Source: Cronobacter universalis NCTC 9529
GTDB lineage: Bacteria > Pseudomonadota > Gammaproteobacteria > Enterobacterales > Enterobacteriaceae
NCBI RefSeq assembly: GCF_001277175.1
Contig: NZ_CP012257.1
Location: forward strand, 1,736,001-1,800,000
DNA length: 64,000 bases
Direction of reading: 5' to 3'
Positions 8,502 through 25,589 of the stretch are shown piece after piece. Within the stretch, counting starts at the first letter, position 1. The number at the start of each line of letters is the position of its first letter. The notes under the pieces were generated by a model. It made no database searches. It was not told where the DNA came from and saw only the letters and a program-made list of their open reading frames with translations. Position numbers and translations under genes: made by a program.

Positions 8502-10298
8502 TCACTCATTAACCCGGACTTCACGGAACATGCCTGTTTCCATATGAAAAAGCAGGTGACAGTGGTAAGCCCAGCGGCCCAGCGCATCGGCCGTCACACG
8601 ATAGCTGCGGCGCGTGCCGGGCGGCATATCAATGGTGTGTTTACGCACCAGAAAATTCCCTTCTTCATCCTCAAGGTCGCTCCACATTCCGTGCAGATGA
8701 ATGGGATGCGTCATCATGGTATCGTTGATGAGCACGATGCGGACGCGCTCGCCATAGCGGAGCGTGACCGGCTCTGCATCGGAGAACTTGATGCCATTGA
8801 AAGACCAGGCAAATTTTTCCATATGGCCGGTAAGATGCAGTTCTATGGTGCGTGAGGGTTCGCGTCCGTCCGGATCGTCAAAAGTGCTCTTCAGGTCAGC
8901 GTAGGTCAGAACCCTGCGGCCGTTATTCCTCAGCCCGATACCCGGATCGCTGAGCTTCGGGACGGGCATCATGGCCTGCATGTCAACCAGGGGGTTGTTC
9001 GTTTCTGATGCCGGATGCTTCTGCATATCACCCATGCCGCCCATGCTGCTGTGATCCATGCCAGCCATACTGCCTGCCGGGGCGCTCTCCACAGCTGAAC
9101 CATCCATGCTCTGCATGCTACCGCCGTCCATACCCTGCATCTGCCCGTGATCCATACCCCCCATGCTGCCGTGATCCATTCCCCCCATTCCCATATCATC
9201 CATGGTGAGCCAGGGACGAGGATCGGTGGAAGGAACCGGGGCAGTCATGCCTTCACGAACGGCAAGCGTGCCCCGTGCATAGCCGCTTCTGTCCATGGAC
9301 TGGGCAAAGATGGTGCAGGCATCCTGGACGGGCTCCACAATGACATCGTAGGTTTCAGCCACGGCAATACGGAACTCATCCACGCTGACGGGGGTGACGT
9401 ACTGGCCGTCAGCAGCCACCACGGTCATCTTTACGCCGGGAATGCGCACATCGAAGTAGGTCATGGCAGAGCCGTTGATAAAGCGGAGGCGGATTTTTTC
9501 GCCTTTACGGAACAGCCCGGTCCAGTTTTTACCCGGGCCCTGACCGTTCATGAGGTAGGTGTACGTCGCACCGCTGACGTCTGCAAGGTCAGTCGGGTTC
9601 ATCTTCATTTCCGCCCACATCTTCCGGTCAGCCAGGGTATTACCCAGTCCCTTTTCCCGGGCATCCCGGAAAAAATCACCGGCGGTGGGCTTGGCGAAGT
9701 TGTAGTAGTCAGACTGTTTTTTCAGTTTTGCAAGAATGGTGGCGGCATTTTCATCTGACCAGTCGGTCAGCATTACCACATGTTCCCGGTCATATGTAAA
9801 CGGCTCAGGCTCAGCGGAATCAATGATAATCGGGCCGTAAACGCCTTCCTGCTCCTGAAGACCGGAATGACTGTGATACCAGTAGGTGCCATTCTGCTTC
9901 ACGCGGAATGAATAAATGAAGGTCTCATCGGGTTCAATACCGTGGAAGCTGAGGCCGGGTACGCCATCCATGTTGGCCGGCAGAATAATGCCGTGCCAGT
10001 GAATGGAAGTTGTTTCTTTCAGACGATTTTTAACCCGCAGCGTGACAGTATCACCTTCTTTCCAGCGCAGCAGGGGACCCGGCAGGCCGGCGTTGATGGT
10101 TTTGGCATAACGGATGTTTCCGGTGATATTCAGCGGCGTTTCGGCGATGAACAGGTCGAAATCGTTACCGGTAAGCGTGCGTGACTGTACCAGACTTACT
10201 GCCGAGAAAGCATCGAACGTCTTCATACCAAGACCGCCGACAATTCCGGCTGCTGTGATCCCTTTGATAAAATTACGTCGTGAACTTTTAAGCTGCAT
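8502..10298 (-). CDS. pcoA: Multicopper oxidase PcoA
   Basis: A periplasmic multicopper oxidase of 598 residues (from the Met at 10298) with a twin-arginine signal ([10 protein letters not shown]). Copper ligand motifs in order: [30 protein letters not shown] and the C-terminal [15 protein letters not shown], which supplies T1/T2/T3 ligands including the axial Met. Between cupredoxin domains 2 and 3 lies a Met-rich tract made of repeats such as [18 protein letters not shown]. PcoA oxidises Cu(I) to less toxic Cu(II). First gene of the pcoABCDRS transcript, divergent from the PcoE-like gene. Confidence 0.95.
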
Positions 10299-10428
10299 AA
10301 TTGGGCTCCGGCAAAATGCAGTTTGTCCCGGGAGAAACTTTCTCGGCGCCGGAAGCATGAATAATGCAACCCGGCCTGGAACGTTATTTCTGTTACCGGA
10401 AAACTATCACAACTGAAACCCCGACTTG

Positions 10429-10480
10429 ATTACATTTATGTCATGTCAGAACCTGCTGTTTTAAATTACATTTATGTCAT
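10429..10480. promoter_or_regulatory. Twin copper-box operators between pcoA and the PcoE-like gene
   Basis: The 16-bp word ATTACATTTATGTCAT occurs twice (10429-10444 and 10465-10480), 36 bp apart. Each is an imperfect palindrome (ATTACA-tttA-TGTCAT) of the type bound by CopR/PcoR/CusR dimers. One copy is closer to pcoA, the other to the plus-strand gene, so a divergent PcoR-controlled promoter pair is likely. The binding protein is inferred. Confidence 0.7.
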
Positions 10481-10588
10481 TTTCGTTCACGGTATTTTTT
10501 TTCGGATACGATAAAAATCACTGAGACCAGTGTAGCTCTGGTCCGGGATTAACTGCGATTCCCATCCTGTAAACGTAAGGAAGTACGA

Positions 10589-10819
10589 ATGAAAAAGATT
10601 ATGCTTGTCGCCGCTGCGGTCCTTCTTTCCATTTCGGCCGCTCAGGCACAGCAGACTCCCATGGACATGTCCTGCTGTATGAACAAAAAGGCCCCGGCAG
10701 CCTCCGTAAATGAGCATGAACTGGCGATTCAGGCACATCAGGGCATGAATAACAGCAGTTCTGCCGCACATCAGAACATTATTGAAACGCACCGCAAGAT
10801 GATGCAGGAAGATAAATAA
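10589..10819 (+). CDS. Short PcoE-like periplasmic metal-binding protein
   Basis: A 76-residue protein with a signal peptide (cleavage after AAQA) and a mature part of only about 57 residues. SSAAHQNIIETHRKMMQ resembles the PcoE motif NSAAHQDMAEMHKKMMK; an MDMSCCMN segment adds Met and Cys ligands. PcoE (144 residues on plasmid pRJ1004) is a periplasmic copper sponge, so this looks like a half-length relative. It is transcribed away from pcoA, from the region holding the twin copper boxes. Strong SD (aaggaag) before the ATG. Confidence 0.75.
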   Translation: MKKIMLVAAAVLLSISAAQAQQTPMDMSCCMNKKAPAASVNEHELAIQAHQGMNNSSSAAHQNIIETHRKMMQEDK

Positions 10820-10970
10820 GCGCAGATGACAGCCCGTAGCCTTAGCTGAAAAAACGCGGGCAAAAATCACCCGGATTTTGTCCTGGTTACTGTTGTTACA
10901 GAATGTGTTGTGCATTAACCCTCATTACACTGAGTTATCTGAAAAACTTTGTTGAGGCTGTAATCAGCCG

Positions 10971-10998
10971 GCCCGTCTGACTGTGGCGGGCTTCTTTT
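10971..10998 (+). terminator. Probable terminator after the PcoE-like gene
   Basis: GCCCG/CGGGC inverted repeat followed by ttcttttta, about 150 bp after the stop of the PcoE-like gene and before the Cys-rich copper-protein gene. Confidence 0.5.
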
Positions 10999-11113
10999 TA
11001 AAACCCTGTTTCACCCCTCTCCTGTTACCGTCTGTATAAAACGCTTTTGCAGCAATCAACATTTTGTTCCATGCTTACCACTTCTTTACATTTAACGATT
11101 ACGGGAAGAAATT

Positions 11114-11441
11114 ATGTCTGAACAATAACCGCAACTGCATTGAGGCCTGTTATATCTGCGCTGCAACCTGTGACTACTGCGCAACGTCCTGCCTGAAAGA
11201 AGAAAATATTGAGATGATGCGCGAATGCATCCGGGCGGACATGCAGTGCGCCAGCATCTGCCGCCTGGCAGCTGAGCTGATGACAATGGACAGTGAATTC
11301 GCTGCTCAGATTTGTAAGGTTTGCGCAGAAGCATGCCAGAAATGCGGTGATGAGTGCGCGAAACATGAGCACGAGCACTGTAAGAAATGTGCTGAAGCCT
11401 GTTACCGCTGTGCTGAAGAATGCCGGAAAATGGCAGCGTGA
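11114..11441 (+). CDS. Four-helix-bundle copper-binding protein (DUF326/Csp type), 5' frameshift
   Basis: The frame encodes about 108 residues with 20 or so Cys in CxxC/CxxxC repeats (CIEACYICAATCDYCATSC; CKVCAEACQKCGDECAKH; CKKCAEACYRCAEECRKM). This is the pattern of Csp-type copper-storage four-helix bundles. There is no signal peptide, so it is probably cytosolic. The natural start appears to be the ATG at 11114 behind gggaag, giving MSEQ, but a run of two As at 11127-11128 puts a TAA after codon 4. Removing one A restores MSEQYRNCIEACYIC. Either a recent frameshift or a sequencing error; otherwise initiation would need the TTG at 11064. Confidence 0.75.
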
Positions 11442-12836: not shown

Positions 12837-13161
12837 AAGGGATATCGTTCAGGCATTAAAGCAAAGAGAAGGTCCGCTTTGAGCGAAAAGCGGAATCCAT
12901 CCTGCCAGCCCGCACAATGTCCAGTTAATAATTTTTAAATTAAGACACGCCATTTCACCGAAGAATAACATTTTCCTGACACCTGACCTTTGCGCTGGAT
13001 AAAGCCTTTATTGCTGTAACACAAAGCGAGCGTGGATCTGGCGCATCGCGAACAGGACAAAAGGTGCATACACCATAACTGATATAGCACCTTGTTGGTG
13101 GGAGGCAGGATGCGTATCTGATGATAATGATTTATTTTGCGGAGTAGCTTAACGGTAATCT
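12837..13161. other. Intergenic between umuC remnant and ABC operon
   Basis: Contains a CCGCTTT/AAAGCGG inverted repeat (12874-12893) without a T-run. I see no open frame with family features. The ABC operon comes in on the minus strand and ends at 13162. Confidence 0.4.
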
Positions 13162-14262
13162 TTATCGTCCCAGCAATACCCGGCTGGAAAATTGTTTTTT
13201 GAGCTCAACGCTGTATGGGGCATTATAAAAGCTTACCCTCTGAAATTTATCATCAAATTCGTTATTCAGATGTTTATTCACAGGAATTGAACCAAAAACT
13301 TTATGGAGTTCGCTTTGCGTTTTCTCACTGACCAGCCAATTGACAAAAAGAGCAGACGCAGCGGGATGTGCTGAATTTTTAGCTATTACGACAGCGTTAG
13401 CTCCGGCAGGCATACTAAACCCGGGTACATAAAATTTTATACGTGATGTTACTGCACCTGTTTTTTTAAGAGTCAGCAGGTGATCTTCCCATGCAGGAGC
13501 CAAAACAAGCTCGCCATCATTGATGCGGGTAAGACTGTCTGCCTGAGATTTTGTGAGCGTGATCTTACTTTTATTTTTAATGAACCATTCCCATCCTTTA
13601 TTCCACTGCTGCAGAACGGCTGGGTCTGTTTTATCAGTTAATTTATGCTCTCCCTGTCCCTGGAGTGTCAATACTCTCTGTATAAAAGCTTCACCGGCCC
13701 CGCCATTTTGCGGATCATTGTACCCAAACAAATTTGGATTGCTGTCGATGAAGCCCTGAAGCTCCTCCAGAGTCTGAGGAAGCTTTTTGTTCTGCATTTG
13801 CAGCGGGTCATACGCAAACCCGGTCTGGCTTCCCCAGAATGCAAGGCCATATCCGAGGAAGTCAGTACCATGGAGTTTACTGTAGCCATTCTGGTATTCG
13901 GGAAGCCAGGCTACCGGCGAAACGGTATAAGAATTAAGGACAACCGGCATCTGGCTCATCGTGAAACCTACTACGTCAAGCTTCCCGGTTGCTTTATTTT
14001 TTTCAGCCAGTATTTTATTAAGATTCCCGTCTATAGTAGATTCGGGAATGATAACTTTGATGCCATACTCCTGTTCAAATCCTTTTACAAAACTTCGCCA
14101 TTGTGGCTTGAGATACCAGACATTAAAGCTAACTGATCCTTCTTTTTGCGCGCGGGAGACAACCTCGGCCCACGTCATTTCGGAAAGCTGCGCTCCCTCT
14201 GCCGCTGAAAAAGAGAGACAAGTAAGAATTATAACGGTAGTTAAAGTCCGAAAGCGTTTCAT
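13162..14262 (-). CDS. ABC transporter substrate-binding protein (family 1)
   Basis: A periplasmic solute-binding protein of 366 residues with a signal peptide (MKRFRTLTTVIILTCLSFSAAEGA). The fold signature is that of family-1 binding proteins: WAEVVSRAQKEGSVSFNVWY, an LDVVGFTMSQMPV hinge, and the late FVNWLVSEKTQSELHKVFGSIPVN motif common to iron, putrescine, phosphonate and sugar-phosphate binders. It is last in the operon, after two permeases and the ATPase. The substrate cannot be read from sequence; the divergent phosphodiesterase genes suggest an organic phosphodiester. Confidence 0.85.
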   Translation of the reverse strand: MKRFRTLTTVIILTCLSFSAAEGAQLSEMTWAEVVSRAQKEGSVSFNVWYLKPQWRSFVKGFEQEYGIKVIIPESTIDGNLNKILAEKNKATGKLDVVGFTMSQMPVVLNSYTVSPVAWLPEYQNGYSKLHGTDFLGYGLAFWGSQTGFAYDPLQMQNKKLPQTLEELQGFIDSNPNLFGYNDPQNGGAGEAFIQRVLTLQGQGEHKLTDKTDPAVLQQWNKGWEWFIKNKSKITLTKSQADSLTRINDGELVLAPAWEDHLLTLKKTGAVTSRIKFYVPGFSMPAGANAVVIAKNSAHPAASALFVNWLVSEKTQSELHKVFGSIPVNKHLNNEFDDKFQRVSFYNAPYSVELKKQFSSRVLLGR

Positions 14263-14271
14263 ATTAACCTC

Positions 14272-15114
14272 TTAATATTTGCCAGTTGACTCAGCTGAAT
14301 AATTATCCTTCAGCATTCTCTCAATAAAGATCATAAGGATGATGTTAGGAATGATGAGTATCATGGATACAACTGCTGCGTCTGGTCTTACAAACGCGTA
14401 TCCCAGATAAGAATAAAGTATTGTCGGAATGGTAATAAAATCCGGCGAACCCAGTACGTAAGAGACAGAAAACTCCTCAAGGCTCCTGACGAAACACAGA
14501 ATCAATGTCGCGAGGATAGCACTCCTCAGAAAAGGCAGATAAGCATTCCTGAATGTAGCCCACCTGTTCGAACCCAGATCGCGACTGGCGTCAATCATCT
14601 CCTGCGGAACAGCCCGAAAACCGGCGGAAAGTATTCTTATTGCATAAGGCAGCGCGAGCACAGTATGTCCTGTAACTATGCTGATAAAGGTGTTGTCGAT
14701 ATTGAGTTGCAAGATCATGGCACTGAAAAATATTCCGATCAGCATTCCCGGGATAACGAGGGGTATCAGTGTCAGGACTTCAGCTATTCCTTTTCCTCTG
14801 AACGGTATGCGACCGAAAGCATAAGCAGTAGGAAGAGCCAGTAACAGACTCAGGAGAGCCACTGTTAACGCTATCGAATAACTGTTGAACATAGCGTCAG
14901 GAAGCGATGTCGTCTGCCACATATTAACCCATCTCGTGAAAGAAAGGCTGTTAGGGAATATGTCAGGAAAACTCCAGGGATGAGCAGGGTCAACCATCGA
15001 CCACAGTACCGCCATGCCCACGGGCAGCCCAAGCCATATAAAATTAGCAATGAGAAAAAAAACCACCGAAACTTTCATGACAGCACCGGTTTTTTTTCGA
15101 CTCTTCATATTCAT
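14272..15114 (-). CDS. ABC transporter permease (second)
   Basis: A 280-residue inner-membrane permease with six hydrophobic segments and the EAA loop MIDASRDLGSNRWATFRNAYLP typical of binding-protein-dependent importers. The start is set at the ATG at 15114, which overlaps the TGA of the upstream permease (ATGA), as expected for coupled translation. It pairs with the preceding permease to form the channel. The arrangement SBP, two permeases and one ATPase matches the PotABCD/Fbp/PhnSTUV class. Confidence 0.88.
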   Translation of the reverse strand: MNMKSRKKTGAVMKVSVVFFLIANFIWLGLPVGMAVLWSMVDPAHPWSFPDIFPNSLSFTRWVNMWQTTSLPDAMFNSYSIALTVALLSLLLALPTAYAFGRIPFRGKGIAEVLTLIPLVIPGMLIGIFFSAMILQLNIDNTFISIVTGHTVLALPYAIRILSAGFRAVPQEMIDASRDLGSNRWATFRNAYLPFLRSAILATLILCFVRSLEEFSVSYVLGSPDFITIPTILYSYLGYAFVRPDAAVVSMILIIPNIILMIFIERMLKDNYSAESTGKY

Positions 15115-15980
15115 TTCAGGTCCCCTTTGCACGTCATAAAAGGTGTTATCAGTAACTTAACTAATATGCTGAACAAAAGTGAGGTTATCATGATGATCAC
15201 GGCAATCACGGCAGCGTTATTCCATTCTCCGTACTCCATGGCTGTTGACTGCATCAGTCGCGCAAGCGAATAAACATCATGAGGCCCGGCGACAGAATAA
15301 AAAGCAAAGTCACCGATCGCATCAATGAATACAATGATTAATGCCACTTGCAGAGCGGGCAGGGTAAGTGGAAGTATAATAGTGATAAACCGCTGCCATT
15401 TATTTGCCCCTAAATTTCCCGAGGCGTATAAAATATCATTTTTCACTGCATTCACTGAACTGCTTATCAGGATCAGAGCAAAGGGCATGTTCTTCCATAT
15501 CTGCAGGACAATGACTCCCGTTCCAAAACTGTCATTCTGCATACGCAGCGGTGTCCTGATAATGTTTGCAGCCAGGAGGAACTCATTAATAACACCATGA
15601 AAAGAGATGATATTAATAAACAAAAAGGCTGCAACCAGTCCGGGGATAAACATAGGTATACGCAATATGGCAATGATACTCTCTTTCATCGGCAGCGGCT
15701 TTCTCAGCCATAAAGCGATGGGGTATGCGAGAATAACGGCACCCAGTGCTCCCAGCAGTGAAACTTTAACTGAGTAAAGAAATGAGCTGATCAATACGGG
15801 ATCGCGTAGCATCCCGGACCAGTACTGAAGTGTAAAATAACTGTTGCCCGTCAGATTAAAATAGCCAATGCTCTGCGCAATCAGAACATAAAATGTAGAG
15901 CCCATCAGCAGAAGGATTGTACCAAGCCCGCTCATCATAAGGAGCCAGGCGAATAATTCCTGCCGGATAGTAGTTTTCAT
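15111..15980 (-). CDS. ABC transporter permease (first)
   Basis: A 289-residue permease with about six transmembrane segments (first at 13-35) and an EAA-loop region ILYASGNLGANKWQRFITIILP. Its start overlaps the ATPase stop in an ATGA and its stop overlaps the next permease start, so three genes are translationally coupled. Closest in layout to PotB/ThiP-half-type permeases. Substrate unknown. Confidence 0.88.
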   Translation of the reverse strand: MKTTIRQELFAWLLMMSGLGTILLLMGSTFYVLIAQSIGYFNLTGNSYFTLQYWSGMLRDPVLISSFLYSVKVSLLGALGAVILAYPIALWLRKPLPMKESIIAILRIPMFIPGLVAAFLFINIISFHGVINEFLLAANIIRTPLRMQNDSFGTGVIVLQIWKNMPFALILISSSVNAVKNDILYASGNLGANKWQRFITIILPLTLPALQVALIIVFIDAIGDFAFYSVAGPHDVYSLARLMQSTAMEYGEWNNAAVIAVIIMITSLLFSILVKLLITPFMTCKGDLK

Positions 15981-17047
15981 GTTACTGGCTCCAGAAATAC
16001 GATGGCGTTTTCAGGCAAATAGAAACATGCCTGCTCTCCGATTTTAAAGGAAGGTTTTTTTATAAGTTGCAGCCGCACGTCGGTTCCGTCACTTGTGTGC
16101 CCTGAAGCCTCGGTATGGCTTCCCATAAAAGCCATACTTTCAACCGTAATGGTAAAGTAATTAGCGCCTTTTTTGTTGTCGGGAATGTATATAGCATCTT
16201 CAGGCCGCCAGCATATCCAGCAATGGTCGCTTTCAGGTTCTCTCGAAGATCTGACGTAGAAGCCACCCATAGAAGTGGATACCCTGTAAAAACCGGGTTG
16301 TTCTGCTCTGCTTATGGTTGCCTTTATGATATTTGCTGCACCAATAAAATCGGCAATAAAGCGGTTTGCCGGATGATAGTATATCTCTTCAGGTGTGCCT
16401 GCCTGCGCAATGTTCCCGGCATTGAGCACCACAATTTTGTCCGACATGGATAGCGCTTCACTCTGGTCATGCGTCACATAAACTGATGTAAGATTGTGAC
16501 GACCCTGAAGCTGCTTGATTTCATATCTCACACTTTCACGCAGCTTTGCATCCAGATTGGAAAGAGGTTCATCAAAAAGCATGACAAGTGGCTTCGTTAC
16601 CATAGCCCTCGCGATCGCAACTCTTTGCTGTTGCCCGCCTGAAAGCTGAGAAGGCATTTTGTGTCTTTGTGATCCGAGCCCCATCTGTTTCAGAACGGTA
16701 TTGATCGTCGCTTTTTGTTCGGCAAGGGGAATTTTCTTCTGCTTCAGACCATAAGCAATGTTGTGCATAACATTCAGGTGCGGGAACAAAGCATAGGACT
16801 GGAAACACATTGCGGTGCTTCGCCTCTCCGGAGGAAGTGTATTAATTGACTCACCGTTCAGGATGATGTTTCCACTGTCCGGAGTAACAAATCCCGCAAT
16901 CATCTTCAGAAGTGTTGTTTTCCCGCATCCGCTCGGTCCAAGCAGGGTTACAAATTCTCCTTCTTCAACATCGAAAGAAATCTCTCTCGCCGCATAGTAA
17001 TCATCAAAACGTTTGGTGATCTTTTCAAGTCTTAGTTTAGCCATCAT
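15977..17047 (-). CDS. ABC transporter ATP-binding protein
   Basis: A 356-residue importer ATPase. Walker [10 protein letters not shown] (about 37-45), Q-loop [10 protein letters not shown], signature LSGGQQQR, Walker [13 protein letters not shown] and H-loop [11 protein letters not shown]. The C-terminal third is a TOBE-like regulatory domain, as in PotA, FbpC and UgpC. First gene of the four-gene transporter operon; its leader holds a palindrome (17076-17090) matching one in front of the divergent gene. Confidence 0.92.
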
Positions 17048-17075
17048 GCAGTCTCTTGATATTCATCTAAAATAA

Positions 17076-17218
17076 GTTTAGCTATTAAACATTAAAATTT
17101 TGTGACAGAGAATAGAAAGCTGATTTTTTGCACTATATCTGTGTTAACTTTATGATTTTATTTGATAAAAAATAAATTAAAATTTCGCTGTTTTTTTAAT
17201 TAAGTTTAGTTATTATAC
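17076..17218. promoter_or_regulatory. Paired palindromic operators in the divergent promoter region
   Basis: Two 15-bp boxes, GTTTAGCTATTAAAC (17076-17090) and GTTTAGTTATTATAC (17204-17218), match at 13 of 15 positions and are each near-palindromic (GTTTA-N5-TAWAC). They lie 128 bp apart, one beside each divergent start, in otherwise very AT-rich DNA. The likely binder is the ROK regulator encoded at 18118, with repression by looping as in NagC. Both role and partner are inference. Confidence 0.65.
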
Positions 17219-17260
17219 TTAATGCCAGTTGTTAATCTTTTTCTTCAGAAGGTGTAGAGC

Positions 17261-18088
17261 GTGTTCAACTTCCATCAGGCTAGTGAAGGTGTCGTGTTGG
17301 CGAACGGCCATCGCGGATACTCCAGCAGGTATCCTGAAAATACGTTATTGGCATTTGAAGGAGCTCGTCTGGCTGGTATGTCGAGCATTGAACTTGATGT
17401 GCACATGACCCTGGATGAGAAGATGGTGGTCACTCATGATTTCCGCATTGACAGAGTATCGGATGGCTCTGGTTATGTAGCAAATATGACGCTCGGCGAA
17501 CTGAGGGCTTATAATTTTGGCGTCAGCGCGCTCACTGAAGGTACAAATGCCGCCATCCCGGTCCTGGATGACATCTTCGACTGGGCGATAAGGCACGATA
17601 CGGGTCTTGTCGTGGAGATAAAACAGCGCAGTCGCCTCGACCGCTTTATTGAGAGATTCACTGAACTGGTTACCACCAAAACCGGCATAGTCGGAAGAAT
17701 ACAGTTACTCGGGTTTAACCATGTACTGCTTAATCAGATCAAGGACAGGGTTCCGGGACTGAAGATTCAGACAGTCTCACTTGAGCGATATAAAAATCAG
17801 CTTGAAGCGATTCTCAGTTCGAGCGCCGACTGTGTCTGTCTCGAATATGAACATACGCACATTGACGATCTGAAGGCGTATAAGCAGGCCGGGTTAGGTG
17901 TACGGCTTTATCTTCCACCGGGCAAGCTCGGTCTCGATACGCTGGAGTACTTCCGAGTTAAATTCGGGCATGATGTACGCAGCGAGATACTTTTCTGGAT
18001 GAAAGAAGGCCTGATTGACATGGTCAGCCATGATGATGTCCTGTATGTCAAAAGACTCATAGATGACGCTGGGTTAAAATGCGCTTAA
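17261..18088 (+). CDS. Glycerophosphodiester phosphodiesterase family protein
   Basis: A 275-residue GDPD-family TIM barrel beginning with GTG. Catalytic residues are visible: His17-Arg18 (NGHRGYSS), Glu26-Asn27 (PENT), Glu44/Asp46 (SIELDVHMT) and His59-Asp60. No signal peptide, so it is cytoplasmic, like UgpQ. UgpQ hydrolyses glycerophosphodiesters to glycerol-3-phosphate and an alcohol as they enter. It is divergent from an ABC importer operon, so it probably acts on the imported solute. Followed after 29 bp by the ROK regulator. Confidence 0.9.
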   Translation: MFNFHQASEGVVLANGHRGYSSRYPENTLLAFEGARLAGMSSIELDVHMTLDEKMVVTHDFRIDRVSDGSGYVANMTLGELRAYNFGVSALTEGTNAAIPVLDDIFDWAIRHDTGLVVEIKQRSRLDRFIERFTELVTTKTGIVGRIQLLGFNHVLLNQIKDRVPGLKIQTVSLERYKNQLEAILSSSADCVCLEYEHTHIDDLKAYKQAGLGVRLYLPPGKLGLDTLEYFRVKFGHDVRSEILFWMKEGLIDMVSHDDVLYVKRLIDDAGLKCA

Positions 18089-18117
18089 ATAATTAACGCC
18101 CGGATACAGGAATTAAT

Positions 18118-19236
18118 ATGAATTTAGTCAGTGCACCTTTAGAACTGAGCGCTACACAGCGTAACCTGATCGACCTTATCAGAAATCACGGTACCGTTAC
18201 ACGGGCCGAACTCAGTCGCCTTTCAGGTCTTACGCCGGGAGCCATAACACAGCAATGTCGTGAACTGATTTTTTCCGGGCTGATTGTTGAAGGTGAGCCT
18301 GTGCACGATGGCAAGCGTGGCCAGCCTTCGTTACCCCTGCGCCTGAATCCAGGAGGGGCCTGCTCTGTAGGTGTTTCCTTCAGTCCTGGGTTTATTGACA
18401 TTGCTGTCGTTGACTTAAGCGGAAAACCGCTCATACAGGTGTCAGAAAAACATACTGAAAATCGTGAAATAACCCTTACGGTCAATCAGGTTATACATAT
18501 GGTTGCCGGTGCACTTAAAAAGAAACGTTTAAGTAACTCAAGGATACTGGGAATTGGATATGCCGTTCCCGGATTCCTGAAAAAAGACGGACGTAAAAGA
18601 CAAACGGTAGCATGGCTTGATACCTGGAGGGAGGTTGACCTTCAGACGGTGTTTTCCGCAGCGTTACCGTACCCGACCTGGGTGGAAAACATCGTAAATG
18701 CTTCTGCTATTGCCGAGTATTACTCGGGTAATCACAGCAATATTTCTGATCTGGTCCTCATCGATCTGGGATATGGGATTGCTGCAGGCATTATTGCTGA
18801 CAGCAAACTGTTGAGTGGGGGATTTTCGAATGCCGGAGAGTTGGGAATGAGTTTCCCTCTCGATCTGCCAAGGCCTTCTTATAAAGATTTGCTTATCACT
18901 CTTGAGAAGGCCGGTCTTAACCCCGGAGATCTTGATAGTCTTTATGACAGCGGAAATACAGTTATTGAGTGCTGGATAGCGCGGGTCTGTGATCAACTGG
19001 AACCCATTATATTCAGTTGTATCCAGTGGCTTGATCCTGAAGTTATCACGCTAGGCGGCGCCATGCCCAAACAAATCGTCGGTCGCTTGGTAAAGGAACT
19101 CAACAAAAGGGTAAGAGGAAAACTGGAGCCGTTACGGCCATCAGCACAAATCGAAGCTTCTGCTTTCAGTAAAGAGGGTGCTTCACGTGGTGCAGCAATG
19201 CTGCCGTTATATTACACACTTAATATTAAAAAATAG
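18118..19236 (+). CDS. ROK-family transcriptional regulator
   Basis: A 372-residue protein with an N-terminal winged-helix DNA-binding domain (ELSRLSGLTPGAITQQCREL) and a C-terminal ROK sugar-kinase-like domain (LIDLGYGIAAGIIADSKLLSGG, NAGELG). The Cys-rich zinc motif (CxCGxxGC) and the preceding His of NagC/Mlc are absent; NAGELGMSF has Met where GH is usual, and no Cys follows. A ligand-responsive repressor of the flanking genes is likely. It overlaps neither neighbour; the next gene starts 70 bp downstream. Confidence 0.88.
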   Translation: MNLVSAPLELSATQRNLIDLIRNHGTVTRAELSRLSGLTPGAITQQCRELIFSGLIVEGEPVHDGKRGQPSLPLRLNPGGACSVGVSFSPGFIDIAVVDLSGKPLIQVSEKHTENREITLTVNQVIHMVAGALKKKRLSNSRILGIGYAVPGFLKKDGRKRQTVAWLDTWREVDLQTVFSAALPYPTWVENIVNASAIAEYYSGNHSNISDLVLIDLGYGIAAGIIADSKLLSGGFSNAGELGMSFPLDLPRPSYKDLLITLEKAGLNPGDLDSLYDSGNTVIECWIARVCDQLEPIIFSCIQWLDPEVITLGGAMPKQIVGRLVKELNKRVRGKLEPLRPSAQIEASAFSKEGASRGAAMLPLYYTLNIKK

Positions 19237-19306
19237 CAGCGCCACATTAGCGTTGCTCTGGTCTGCAGCATACGCCGGCCGTTATATTAATAAGAGAGGA
19301 TGGGAT

Positions 19307-20011
19307 ATGTCACGTGATGTTGTGAGTTACGCACCCGATGTGGGAAGAAAATTTTCATCTTCGGGGTGTCCTTTACCTTTCCCGGGTAATACATTTCTGG
19401 GGCACCTTGAACAGCAGGGGGGAGGATTTGATACTTTTGACACTATTCTTAATGTATACAGAGTCCTTCCGAAAAGCAGATTTTTCAGGAAATTGGCGGT
19501 TCTCCCCACCAGCAGTTACCACATTACGCTTTTTGTTGGTGTAAACGAGTACGATCGTCGTTCAGGTCCATGGCCTGTCGGTATATCACGTAAGGAGTCG
19601 ATGGAAAGCCTGAATACATCTTTTTTGAAGAAGCTTAAATTACGTCAGCCAGATATGTCAGCGCCCTTTGAATTTATTGTCGATTTAGATGCTCCATTGC
19701 CGGGAGAGAACGATAATCTTTTTATTCCACTTAAACCTGCCAGTCAGGAAATATATACCAGGCTACAAAATTTAAGGGATGAATTGTCAGATATAACGGG
19801 TATTCGTCGCGACGATCATAGTAGTTATCAGTACCACATTACCCTGGGGTATCTAGTGGCAACTCTTGATGAAGTGCAACTAACGGAATACAGAGCCAAA
19901 AACAGGGAGTGGAGAGAAATGATAGCGAAGGCCGGTAAAATTACCATTAAGAAATTTTATTTTTGCATTTTACAGGATATGTATTCATTCCGGAGCATTT
20001 GCGTAATCTAG
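19307..20011 (+). CDS. DUF1868-type 2H phosphoesterase
   Basis: A 234-residue protein with two His-x-Thr motifs, YHITLF (His72) and YQYHITLGY (His177), the signature of the 2H phosphoesterase (LigT/CPDase) superfamily. The N-terminal part (GRKFSSSGCPLPFPGNTFLG) is characteristic of DUF1868 as I recall it. 2H enzymes open 2',3'- or 1'',2''-cyclic phosphodiesters. The ATG at 19307 follows aagagaggatggg. Cotranscription with the GDPD and ROK genes suggests a second step on the same phosphodiester substrate, but no substrate is known to me. Confidence 0.78.
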   Translation: MSRDVVSYAPDVGRKFSSSGCPLPFPGNTFLGHLEQQGGGFDTFDTILNVYRVLPKSRFFRKLAVLPTSSYHITLFVGVNEYDRRSGPWPVGISRKESMESLNTSFLKKLKLRQPDMSAPFEFIVDLDAPLPGENDNLFIPLKPASQEIYTRLQNLRDELSDITGIRRDDHSSYQYHITLGYLVATLDEVQLTEYRAKNREWREMIAKAGKITIKKFYFCILQDMYSFRSICVI

Positions 20012-20151
20012 ATATGGTTTTGTTTACTTCCCGACAAGACAGTAATGAAATGCTCAGATAAAAGTTCGCCAGGTTAAACTGGACAGATTCAGGTTGAGCT
20101 GAATTCATAAAGAATTATTCAATTGCACTTTTATAAAGTTGAGGTTTTTCT

Positions 20152-20571
20152 GTGAACAAGACGTACATGCGGTGGATTTATTTAATTATACCTGTATTAA
20201 TACTGACTGGGTGTGCAGGCTCTCCACTCGGCAACCTGATTTTTAATAAACGTTATCAGACCAGTAAAGATGTCTCTGCATCATGGGTAGGTGCATCGAC
20301 AGATGAACTGATGATGGCTTGGGGACCACCACAAAACAGCCAGGCTCTGAGTAACGGAAGCAGCATACTGGTTTACCAATATGACTGGATTGTAAATGGA
20401 TACGATTCAAGCATGTGGAACTATATTCCTGAGTATGCAAACTGTGAAAGGCGATTTCTGGTCGAGAATGGGATAATAACAAGATGGTATTCGTCCGGTG
20501 GCTGCCCAAAAAGACCTAAAGGAGCAAAATTGATTGATGGAAATGTACCAGTACCTGAACCAACGCTTTAG
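20152..20571 (+). CDS. Small lipoprotein 1 (SmpA/BamE-like)
   Basis: A 139-residue lipoprotein with GTG start and lipobox LILTGC|AG. Ala at +2 predicts outer-membrane sorting. SASWVGASTDELMMAWGPPQ followed by a YQYDW strand is the pattern of SmpA/BamE-like beta-lactamase-inhibitor-protein folds, in which a helix with D/E-E-L precedes WGPP. It ends in a Pro-rich tail after two Cys that may pair. First of four lipoproteins in tandem. Function unknown. Confidence 0.75.
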   Translation: MNKTYMRWIYLIIPVLILTGCAGSPLGNLIFNKRYQTSKDVSASWVGASTDELMMAWGPPQNSQALSNGSSILVYQYDWIVNGYDSSMWNYIPEYANCERRFLVENGIITRWYSSGGCPKRPKGAKLIDGNVPVPEPTL

Positions 20572-20753
20572 CTACTCCTGCTCTTGAACGGTATTTATTT
20601 GAAGGAGCCTTAAAGAAACCAAGGTTCACAAAGAGAGTGCCAGTAAAAAAACAAGGGGCGTTTCGGTTAGAAGGACAAAATTGACTAAATTTTTGTTCAT
20701 AATCATTCAAAATCAAACCCAATCAATATAGGAAAAATGTTAAGGTCAATATT
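20572..20753. other. Gap between lipoproteins 1 and 2
   Basis: Reading gtaccagtac... to aatcaatata I find no open frame worth calling; the AT-rich final 60 bases could hold a promoter for lipoprotein 2. Confidence 0.3.
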
Positions 20754-21173
20754 ATGAAGACTCATATGGCAGTATTTGCATTGATGCTATTCGTTTCGGG
20801 ATGTAGCTCCTTCAGCGGTGAGGATAAGTTTACCCGGAGTTATGTTTCAGCTCATATCACGCCTAATAAAACAACGGAGTCTGAAGTTAAGGCTCTCTAT
20901 GGCACACCAGACAGACAGACATCCCATTCAGACGGTAGTTACGTATGGTCTTTTAATAAGGATGGTAATATGAGCACGCTTTCAACGGCTCTTTCTTACA
21001 TTCCTGGAACCTCAGTGCTAAGCGGTGCCGTGAATAGTGCGACTATGGCACAGAACACCAAGGATGATATAAGTTCTGTTTCTGATAAAATGACAGGAAA
21101 TTCAGAACACCGTAGTGACTCTTTAACCATTTATTTCACCAAAAACAAAATTGTCTCTGACTGGATTATGTGA
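20754..21173 (+). CDS. Small lipoprotein 2 (SmpA/BamE-like)
   Basis: A 139-residue lipoprotein with lipobox LFVSGC|SS. The sequence NKTTESEVKALYGTPDRQTSHSDG, then YVWSFNK, is typical of the SmpA/OmlA (BamE) fold, in which a helix leads to a G-x-P turn and paired strands. A Gly/Ala-rich middle (SYIPGTSVLSGAVNSATMAQ) could be a hydrophobic hairpin. No function can be assigned. Confidence 0.75.
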   Translation: MKTHMAVFALMLFVSGCSSFSGEDKFTRSYVSAHITPNKTTESEVKALYGTPDRQTSHSDGSYVWSFNKDGNMSTLSTALSYIPGTSVLSGAVNSATMAQNTKDDISSVSDKMTGNSEHRSDSLTIYFTKNKIVSDWIM

Positions 21174-21339
21174 CTTTCTATTAATAAGCTGGGGGTAAAT
21201 TACTTCAGGAGCGTATTTATACTTATTTGGAGCTTCCCTGATGCTCGTATCCGCCCTGTCCACCCGCCCGTCACCTCACCGGTAGCGAGTTGAAGCTAAA
21301 ATAGATTATCACCAGGCCGAAGGTAAACAGGTCTTAAAT

Positions 21340-21798
21340 ATGAATGAAAATATACATAAAATAGCTGTTACTACTTTAGCAGCCTGGCTGCTTTCAGGAT
21401 GCTCGACACTGGCTCCTGAGCGAACTGCAGCAGAAAATCTTATGGGGAAAAATGTTAGTGAGGCTTACAAGGTTTTTGGTAATCCATTGTTTATTAGTAC
21501 GGAAACAAGTGTCAGCAAGGAAAGTAAGTTTTACGGCCATAATTTTTATCAGTTTTATTTTAAGGGTCTTGAATACGATCGGGAAAAATTCAACGGTTCT
21601 TATATGGACACATCACAAGGCCGTCCGGTTCTGGTTAATGAGTTCGAAACAGAACATGTGCAGGAGTCATGTAAGGTTGGATTATGGGCTGATCCAAAAA
21701 CAGACATAATCGACTACTACGAAGTAAAAGGTAACTGTGGATGGGGAGGTTCGGGATTCGGTACAACCGGCATATTTCATTACTGGGGAATAAACTGA
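21340..21798 (+). CDS. Small lipoprotein 3
   Basis: A 152-residue lipoprotein with lipobox LLSGC|ST (outer membrane by the +2 rule). ENLMGKNVSEAYKVFGNP resembles the helix-turn of BamE-like lipoproteins. Two late Cys (QESCKV, KGNCGWGGSGFG) may form a disulphide. Its own start is preceded by a 166-bp gap that contains no other gene. Unknown function. Confidence 0.72.
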   Translation: MNENIHKIAVTTLAAWLLSGCSTLAPERTAAENLMGKNVSEAYKVFGNPLFISTETSVSKESKFYGHNFYQFYFKGLEYDREKFNGSYMDTSQGRPVLVNEFETEHVQESCKVGLWADPKTDIIDYYEVKGNCGWGGSGFGTTGIFHYWGIN

Positions 21799-21956
21799 CT
21801 TGCATACTTTCTGAGTATCAAACAGATCCCTAATCTTACAGGGATAACGCCTGTTAAATACCTGTGGGCATTCCCGGTGGGATAAAAAGCTTTTAACATA
21901 TTACTGTTCAATGTCAGTAATAAAAAATCAGACATAATCCAAAGTCCGGAGTTAAC

Positions 21957-22277
21957 ATGATGAAAAAAATTATCTGTATTTCAGCTGTTTCTTTTCTTTT
22001 AAGTGCGTGTACTACGATGTCCCCTGATCTCGCAATCCCGATACTGCAGGCTGATACTTCCAAAATGCTAGGTTTAGGGTCTTCCGATGAAATCACTGTT
22101 ACCAATGTTTCCATGTCTAAGCCTGACGCGCTCGGTTCTCAAGTGATATCGTACCGCGCAACTACCGATAAGGGGCGTATTTTGGACTGTGAGGCCCACG
22201 TGATTCCCGGCCTTCCGTTACAGGATCCAACCGTAAGCACTCCTACGTGTAAACCGGTTAAGACTTATAACAAATAA
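21957..22277 (+). CDS. Small lipoprotein 4
   Basis: A 106-residue lipoprotein with lipobox LLSAC|TT. The mature part has a predicted strand-rich C-terminal half with two Cys (LDCEAHV, TPTCKPV). No family recognised. Fourth and last of the lipoprotein row. Confidence 0.7.
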   Translation: MMKKIICISAVSFLLSACTTMSPDLAIPILQADTSKMLGLGSSDEITVTNVSMSKPDALGSQVISYRATTDKGRILDCEAHVIPGLPLQDPTVSTPTCKPVKTYNK

Positions 22278-22467
22278 AATTATTAGTTTTCAAAGGCCTT
22301 AGTAAACGCGCGGGGCGGCTCAGAATGACGGACATGCAGCGGATGAGCCGTAATGAAACAGCATGATATATGCCAGTGTAATTTACCTTATACATGCATT
22401 TTGTACGGATGCCCGCGTTTTTACGTTCAAATATCCTCAACATCAGGGACTAACCCAGAAGAACATC

Positions 22468-22677
22468 ATGAACAGACATGAAGTGAGATCCACGCTTTTC
22501 AGAAGTGCGGGATATGATGCGACTACAGGTGTGCTGGAACTGGAGTACCGGAACGGCGCGTGCAGGCGCTGGCTTGCCGTGCCGGCAAAAGTTTACCAGG
22601 CGTTCTGTGCGGCCGCAGACAGCGACACTTTTTTCAAAACCCGTATCGATGGTCGCTACCTATCTGATGCACGGTGA
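22468..22677 (+). CDS. KTSC-domain protein
   Basis: A 69-residue protein starting MNRHEVRSTLFRSAGYD. The pattern S-x-x-x-x-x-GYD, then L-E-L-E-Y-R-N-G, then Y-x-V-P-x-x-V-Y-x-x-F is that of the KTSC domain (lysyl-tRNA-synthetase C-terminal-like), common on phages and islands. The ATG at 22468 is preferred to the longer frame from 22363 because the domain starts there. Role unknown. Confidence 0.75.
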   Translation: MNRHEVRSTLFRSAGYDATTGVLELEYRNGACRRWLAVPAKVYQAFCAAADSDTFFKTRIDGRYLSDAR

Positions 22678-22952
22678 AAGCAGCTTTGAAGATGCCTGCA
22701 TCGTCAAACGTTCAGTGCTGGCCATCTACTGTGCGTACTTAATTAAGCAATGTCCGCTTCTGGCACAATGCGGGCATTATGAAAGGGATGTGCTCAAGCG
22801 AACCTCCATTTAGCCTTGAAGTGGTTATCAAAACTCTACGTAAACTATGCAAAATCAATGAGTTATGGCGAAGGCAAAAATAATAAGTTTAGATGCTTAT
22901 TAAGCATAAAAGTTTTTAAATTCAATCGGATGCAATGAATTTCTAAATCTAC
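22678..22952. other. Right end of the island, non-coding
   Basis: No convincing gene. A single GGTTATCAAAA word (22823-22833) matches the repeats beside the integrase remnant and may be the P'-arm site of the attachment region. Confidence 0.5.
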
Positions 22953-25523: not shown

Positions 25524-25589
25524 AGAAAGCCTCAAATGAATGAGTTAAATTAACAACAAGGATGGAAACTGTTTAGCCGGTAAGTGTCG

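Follow-up and report, generated by a model that had tools for sequence, protein, structure and literature searches.

Organization of the locus

The window analysed here, a 64,000-nucleotide stretch of DNA from Cronobacter universalis NCTC 9529, contains a seven-gene cassette (13162-20011) that probably imports and hydrolyses a sugar phosphodiester. All seven open reading frames are intact and they are arranged as two divergent units separated by 213 bp. Pfam matches (SBP_bac_8 at 79.8 bits, GDPD at 94.6 bits, and PF08975, the DUF1868/2H family, at 88.1 bits with a cut-off of 21) bear out the gene families that a preliminary description had read from this DNA, and the intact frames bear out its layout.

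The minus-strand unit encodes an ABC importer. It consists of a 366-residue solute-binding protein of the SBP_bac_8 type with an N-terminal hydrophobic, signal-like stretch (13162-14262), permease 2 (14272-15132), permease 1 (15111-15980), and an ATPase with ABC_tran and TOBE_2 domains (15977-17047). Both permeases match BPD_transp_1; permease 2 has a GTG start and is given a shorter start in the Kosakonia record. Read from the ATPase, the importer genes overlap by 4 bp and 22 bp and are then separated by a 9 bp gap. The plus-strand unit encodes a GDPD-family enzyme with a GTG start and no signal-like stretch (17261-18088), a ROK regulator with a winged helix-turn-helix (18118-19236; ROK and HTH_24 matches), and a 234-residue DUF1868 2H phosphoesterase that also has no signal-like stretch (19307-20011), with gaps of 29 and 70 bp between them. 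The most likely start of the 2H gene is the ATG at 19307, after AAGAGAGG, and not 19178; the open frame from 19178 overlaps the ROK gene, and the relatives also begin at the position equivalent to 19307. The GC content is 44-45% across 14001-20000. A promoter scan was uninformative (6 sites against 13.8 in shuffles) and a terminator scan returned 11 sites against 7.3 in shuffles.

The 2H phosphoesterase and XanP

A paper of December 2025 introduced xanthosan, bis-(1,6)-cyclic galactose phosphate, as a Xanthomonas-specific nutrient, which Xanthomonas causes infected plant cells to make as food for itself (PMC12807533). According to that paper, XanP hydrolyses xanthosan to pGal-pGal and Gal-1-P and spares the other phosphoesters tested, and the catalytic residues of XanP in X. 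oryzae pv. oryzicola are H99/T101 and H204/S206 (PMC12807533). The search with the 2H protein of the window found 19 proteins, and the DUF1868 protein of Xanthomonas sacchari (P0019) was the sole relative from outside the Enterobacterales among the matches listed, with 45-47% identity over the full length. The residues H99/T101 and H204/S206 of P0019 carry the numbers named for XanP, and P0019 is taken for XanP by its family and these residue numbers. The 2H protein has HxT at 72 and 177, a spacing of 105 that is equal to that of P0019 (99 and 204).

A tree of 33 rows places six enterobacterial sequences together with P0019 in one clade, with support of 100/100. The protein of genome G129 (L023) joins this clade next (89/85), and the other importer-linked DUF1868 proteins are placed elsewhere. 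Thirty-four residues are fixed in the XanP-type clade and occur in no more than 2 of 22 other sequences, a comparison group that leaves out L023 and L058-L060; the set was defined on the clade itself, so sharing inside the clade follows from the definition. Of these residues, the seven other importer-linked proteins have 1-3 and L023 has 12. The 2H gene thus appears to encode a XanP-type enzyme, and hydrolysis of xanthosan is predicted for it. This supports the earlier proposal that the locus scavenges a glycosyl or cyclic phosphodiester, as XanP is reported to cut a cyclic galactose phosphodiester.

A twin-arginine translocation (Tat)-like N-terminal stretch, called from a twin arginine and hydropathy and not by a signal-peptide program, is present in P0019, L023 and an E. 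coli plasmid copy (L069), and is absent from all 12 importer-linked 2H proteins, the window copy included. The window protein is therefore predicted to be cytoplasmic and to differ from the Xanthomonas protein in location rather than in family, and we infer that XanP itself is exported. A cytoplasmic 2H enzyme needs an inner-membrane importer, and the island supplies one. Importer genes were found with all five XanP-clade copies whose surroundings could be seen; for one of them, where the contig breaks off, two of the four genes are there. A structure model of the 2H protein was unusable, with a predicted local distance difference test (pLDDT) score of 49.2. The only solved relative found by sequence is Atu0111 (structure 2fsq), which belongs to the same Pfam family but is distant (73 bits).

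Other DUF1868 genes have different surroundings. L023, the next clade out, has no importer genes beside DUF1868; here (8911-11189) the Tat-bearing XanP-like gene adjoins DUF4432 and PAS-chemoreceptor genes, and the importer cassette of G129, with a GDPD gene and a porin gene, sits elsewhere in that genome (L129). None of the 12 other DUF1868 loci (L046-L057) has an importer of this subfamily alongside. At one of these (L046, 3452-12683) the DUF1868 gene is of the rhizobial type and its neighbours seem to be phn (C-P lyase) genes, which were recognised by eye. On a Deinococcus gobiensis plasmid (L146, 3851-8690) a more distant importer and a DUF1868 gene stand in one gene run behind a LacI regulator.

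The importer and its subfamily

The ATPase reached 325.9 bits on the UgpC model, whose cut-off is 432, in agreement with the preliminary view that the importer is not Ugp-like, and no NCBIfam model reached its cut-off for the ATPase among the matches listed (25 of 186). The permeases score highest on the PotC and PotB models, but all the Pot scores are far below their cut-offs (PotA 339.8 of 482, PotB 81.5 of 348 and PotC 89.2 of 326 bits), and polyamine transport was rejected for this reason. The binding protein matches SBP_bac_8, SBP_bac_1, SBP_bac_11 and SBP_bac_6 in Pfam. Its nearest solved relatives are remote, at 47.2 bits or less, and are mostly ferric-binding proteins. The iron ligand of ferric-binding proteins is a di-tyrosine. 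The window protein has no YY and carries WEDHL at the di-tyrosine position of these relatives, and iron transport was rejected on this ground. These results give no sign of the case that the preliminary description had named as a refutation, in which homologous importers are known to carry iron or polyamines.

A profile of the binding-protein subfamily scores 538 bits on the window protein. In the phylum survey (299 genomes; the order, class and phylum surveys were draws, not censuses) this profile scored 465-596 bits in four genomes and 121 bits at the next place; of these genomes only G129 is independent, since the other three are rows of the profile. The subfamily loci examined, at 440 bits or more, number 23; three of them (L025, L026 and L045) were found via DUF1868, four are the window and its close copies, and among the other 16 several are near-copies of each other. 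L021, at a contig end without the binding protein, and L146, with its more distant importer, are outside the 23. Every one of the 23 loci carries GDPD or DUF1868 (GDPD 13, DUF1868 6, both 4), as do all 16 loci found via the binding protein alone. A ROK gene is present in 22 of the 23, and the exception, L066, has a GntR gene. Ten control importers, taken from among the lower-scoring profile matches, had no ROK gene, no DUF1868, one GDPD and two IMPase genes. Members of the subfamily carry names from Salmonella, Klebsiella, Vibrio, Pasteurella, Providencia and Agrobacterium.

Some of the sister loci contain additional sugar genes. The Vibrio scophthalmi locus has galE and galT after GDPD and ROK, at the place of the window 2H gene, and the Parasedimentitalea locus has galT and an IMPase gene. 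In Vibrio THAF191d (L070, 2565-10313) the importer, ROK, DUF1868 and a phosphogluco/phosphomannomutase occur together. Clusters on Agrobacterium Ti and other plasmids (L064, L065, L141, L144 and L145) share the importer subfamily and the ROK family with the window, but they have another type of GDPD, no 2H enzyme, an IMPase, and a Na/Pi cotransporter, sucrose phosphorylase, aldose epimerase or alpha-galactosidase, mostly with traR nearby. Judged by gene content, these plasmid loci may be opine-like sugar-phosphodiester loci that are distinct from acc in their binding-protein family. The extra genes in the sister loci point to sugar phosphates.

The GDPD enzyme and the history of the cassette

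The catalytic set H17, E44, D46, H59, E119 and K121 is kept in the 14 GDPD rows compared, a comparison that left out L028, and the window GDPD is taken for a hydrolase of linear diesters. Its best curated model is UgpQ, with 70.1 bits of the 264 required. It is 30.5% identical to the annotated accF product and about 35% identical over 106 residues to the Ti-plasmid GDPD. A C-terminal stretch is present in the GDPD proteins of the window, E. coli, Vibrio and G043 and absent from the Ti-plasmid type.

In the binding-protein tree the four cassettes with both GDPD and DUF1868 form one clade (100/100), which is nested among the GDPD-only cassettes of E. coli, Vibrio scophthalmi and G043 (97/98). 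A six-gene form with importer, GDPD and ROK genes matches in 18 of 5426 E. coli genomes. The two E. coli loci examined (L148 and L149) have the same divergent layout and families and similar operator-like boxes, but the 2H gene is absent within 10 kb. Since the clade with both enzymes is nested in GDPD-only cassettes and the E. coli form is without the 2H gene, the xanP-like gene was probably gained by an older cassette of importer, GDPD and ROK genes.

The ROK regulator and two operator-like boxes

The words CxCGxxGC, GExGH and DxGGT are motifs of ROK proteins, and none of the three was found in the ROK protein of the window. Its relatives at 55-61% identity carry names from Salmonella, Klebsiella, Yersinia, Proteus and Providencia; no Xanthomonas name is among the matches listed, for which 8000 candidates were scored. 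On sphingomonad plasmids (L150, L151 and L152) ROK genes that are about 32-36% identical adjoin TonB-dependent receptors, and L151 also has a GDPD gene.

The region between the two units contains two operator-like boxes of 27 bp, given here on the plus strand. Box 1 (17071-17097) adjoins the ATPase start, and box 2 (17199-17225), which is nearly palindromic, adjoins the GDPD start. The alignment used to mark the boxes included the window; the matrix was built from 12 boxes of six other loci, four of them close and two from E. coli. It ranks the window boxes first and second in the 64 kb, with scores of 27.8 (17199) and 25.4 (17071); the next score elsewhere is 6.5, and the maximum in 500 simulated intergenic stretches was 20.2. 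With a matrix made from the E. coli boxes only, sites at both boxes again rank first and second (16.9 and 15.6), by a thin margin over an unrelated site at 13.1. In five close loci 19 of the 27 columns of each box are invariant, compared with 56 of 136 columns elsewhere. The ROK protein is predicted to bind both boxes.

A mobile island

The seven genes occur in identical order and orientation on the Kosakonia cowanii plasmid p128063, in Pantoea sp. Mb-10 and in Ca. Pantoea gossypiicola, and a contig end of P. anthophila holds four complete cassette genes and part of a fifth. The cassette proteins are 74-96% identical across these relatives. Because order and orientation are the same in Kosakonia and Pantoea, the grouping of the seven genes is not due to chance. 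The cassette lies on a 9.9-kb island (12872-22775). The stretch 12870-22776 is common to the conjugative K. cowanii plasmid at 88.6% identity, and most of it is found in two Pantoea loci at 82-87%. Fourteen of 23 plasmid records with at least 80% cover were examined; the other nine look like near-copies by organism group and identity.

In two genomes of the same genus (G005 and G003) homology to the window ends at 12894, within a REP-like hairpin, and restarts past the island, at 22752 or 25586 in G005 and at 25559 in G003. Their only relative of the binding protein is 26% identical, and they also hold the hairpin at the left junction. The pattern GTCCGCTT-N8-AAGCGGAC, with at most 3 mismatches, has two sites in the window, given here on the plus strand, and they mark the two edges of the island: the left hairpin at 12872-12895 and the right hairpin at 22752-22775. 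The number expected was 0.34, and two or more sites occurred in 6 of 100 shuffles. The block may move by exchange between such hairpins. Among the open reading frames of the island that were scanned, which did not include every small one, no integrase was recognised. DUF1868 is rare in the order, in 4 of 197 drawn genomes at 5 places. Taken together, the comparisons indicate that the cassette is a horizontally moving block. The same island carries four small lipoprotein-like genes (20152-22277, plus strand) that have no Pfam match, recur in L020 and L022, and are not thought to be part of the pathway.

Comparison with known systems

The Xanthomonas xanthosan system comprises the synthetase AvrBs2, XanT, XanP and xanR, a ROK regulator. 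The window locus shares with it a 2H enzyme of the same clade, an adjoining regulator of the ROK family and a predicted uptake function. It differs in having an ABC importer and a GDPD enzyme, no AvrBs2, a 2H enzyme without a signal-like stretch, and a location on an Enterobacterales island. No TonB-dependent transporter (XanT) is among the cassette genes; the rest of the genome was not searched. As neither AvrBs2 nor XanT was encountered, the cassette is not assigned to the published system. By analogy, it would work like the uptake-and-use half of the xanthosan system with another transporter.

The agrocinopine acc system of pTiC58 likewise takes up a sugar phosphodiester through an ABC importer and then acts on it with an enzyme of the GDPD family (AccF). 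Class C binding proteins are SBP_bac_5-like. AccA is a class C binding protein (PMC4526662), unlike the SBP_bac_8 protein of the window, and the regulator and the 2H enzyme differ as well. At the level of titles and abstracts, with most subscription journals outside the coverage, no published description of the cassette and no literature on DUF1868 was found.

Proposed function and alternative readings

The reading that we favour, and to which the evidence leans, is that the cassette is a horizontally moving one that imports and hydrolyses a sugar phosphodiester; the most likely compound is xanthosan or a cyclic hexose phosphate closely analogous to it. That the substrate belongs to the sugar phosphodiesters is held with good confidence; for xanthosan or a near analogue in particular the chances are about even. 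The solute would pass the outer membrane through porins, and the binding protein and the ABC importer would carry it intact into the cytoplasm. There the 2H enzyme, if it has the activity reported for XanP, would open the ring and may cut further, and the GDPD enzyme would cleave the linear sugar-phosphate-sugar diester. Hexose-1-phosphate could then enter the Leloir pathway via the chromosomal galT; the genome holds a galT homologue with 69% identity. The ROK protein may control both divergent units at the two boxes in response to a sugar phosphate.

Several points weigh against this reading. A fold search with the binding-protein model (pLDDT 91.0) gave sugar, sugar-phosphate, phosphonate, citrate and iron binders tied within about 1 Z unit at the top, so no ligand is inferred from it. 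A single Xanthomonas sequence, P0019, was compared, and the extra sugar genes are located on sister loci and not on the window island. The preliminary description had linked its shared-pathway idea to whether the enzymes occur without the importer in most genomes. For DUF1868 they do, which, taken at its word, counts against that idea: in the phylum draw 14 of 16 places are without this importer within about 6-9 kb on each side, and DUF1868 as an importer-linked family in general was rejected. In the reverse direction the association held at all 23 importer loci. Sister cassettes with GDPD only suggest that the importer formerly carried a linear diester. According to the xanthosan paper XanP makes both cuts alone, so a GDPD enzyme would not be needed; it also states that xanT and xanP were not induced by xanthosan and that loss of xanR left lesion length unchanged, which speaks against simple ROK-mediated induction in Xanthomonas (PMC12807533).

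In an alternative reading the solute is linear, an opine-like sugar phosphodiester that resembles agrocinopine or is another sugar-phosphate-sugar compound, and is cut mainly by the GDPD enzyme, with the 2H enzyme clearing cyclic by-products or widening the range. The nearest importer relatives are in GDPD-only cassettes, such cassettes are also found, together with IMPase, sucrose phosphorylase and traR, on Ti plasmids of Agrobacterium, and the self-sufficiency of XanP (PMC12807533) fits as well. However, the 2H protein falls in the XanP clade, apart from the other importer-linked DUF1868 proteins, and the window GDPD is not of the Ti-plasmid type; this explanation is judged unlikely, though it deserves serious weight. 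The GDPD-like protein could instead be a synthetase of the AvrBs2 or agrocinopine-synthase type, in a locus that makes and recycles a sugar phosphodiester. AvrBs2 is reported to keep the canonical GDPD residues (PMC12807533), so these residues do not exclude synthesis, and the C-terminal stretch that the Ti-plasmid type lacks is compatible with it. Yet the AvrBs2 profile gives the window GDPD 23.1 bits over about 70 residues, below its cut-off and against 70 bits for UgpQ, this was the best score in the whole genome with nothing over the cut-off, and a synthetase would make little sense inside an uptake cassette. We consider it very improbable.

Scavenging of glycerophosphodiesters in the manner of Ugp and UgpQ, with glycerol-3-phosphate as the product, is also improbable, although UgpQ is the top curated model of the GDPD enzyme and the fold matches that tie at the top include M. 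tuberculosis UgpB. The ATPase misses the UgpC cut-off, the regulator is of the ROK family, galT, galE, a phosphohexomutase or IMPase occur in sister loci, and a XanP-clade 2H enzyme has no part in such a pathway. Hardly any credence is given to a ferric iron or polyamine importer standing beside unrelated enzymes. The ferric-binding relatives and the PotC and PotB matches of the permeases would fit it; the missing di-tyrosine, the low Pot scores and the recurrence of the same two enzyme families at every subfamily locus do not.

Significance

One study of wheat lesions due to X. translucens assigned 28.6% of the isolates to Pantoea (PMC8170138), which makes access to xanthosan plausible and no more. 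It is tentatively suggested, as a somewhat doubtful proposal, that plant-associated Enterobacterales (Pantoea, Kosakonia, Enterobacter and this Cronobacter) practise food piracy, taking up Xanthomonas-induced xanthosan without an effector of their own, and that the importer subfamily serves hidden sugar-phosphodiester nutrients in plant, animal and marine bacteria. If this is true, xanthosan, a "private" nutrient of Xanthomonas, would be open to theft by Pantoea, Kosakonia and their relatives, and the cassette would provide an inner-membrane route for cyclic sugar phosphodiesters. The importer subfamily, its Ti-plasmid members included, would also gain a candidate function and a defined test compound.

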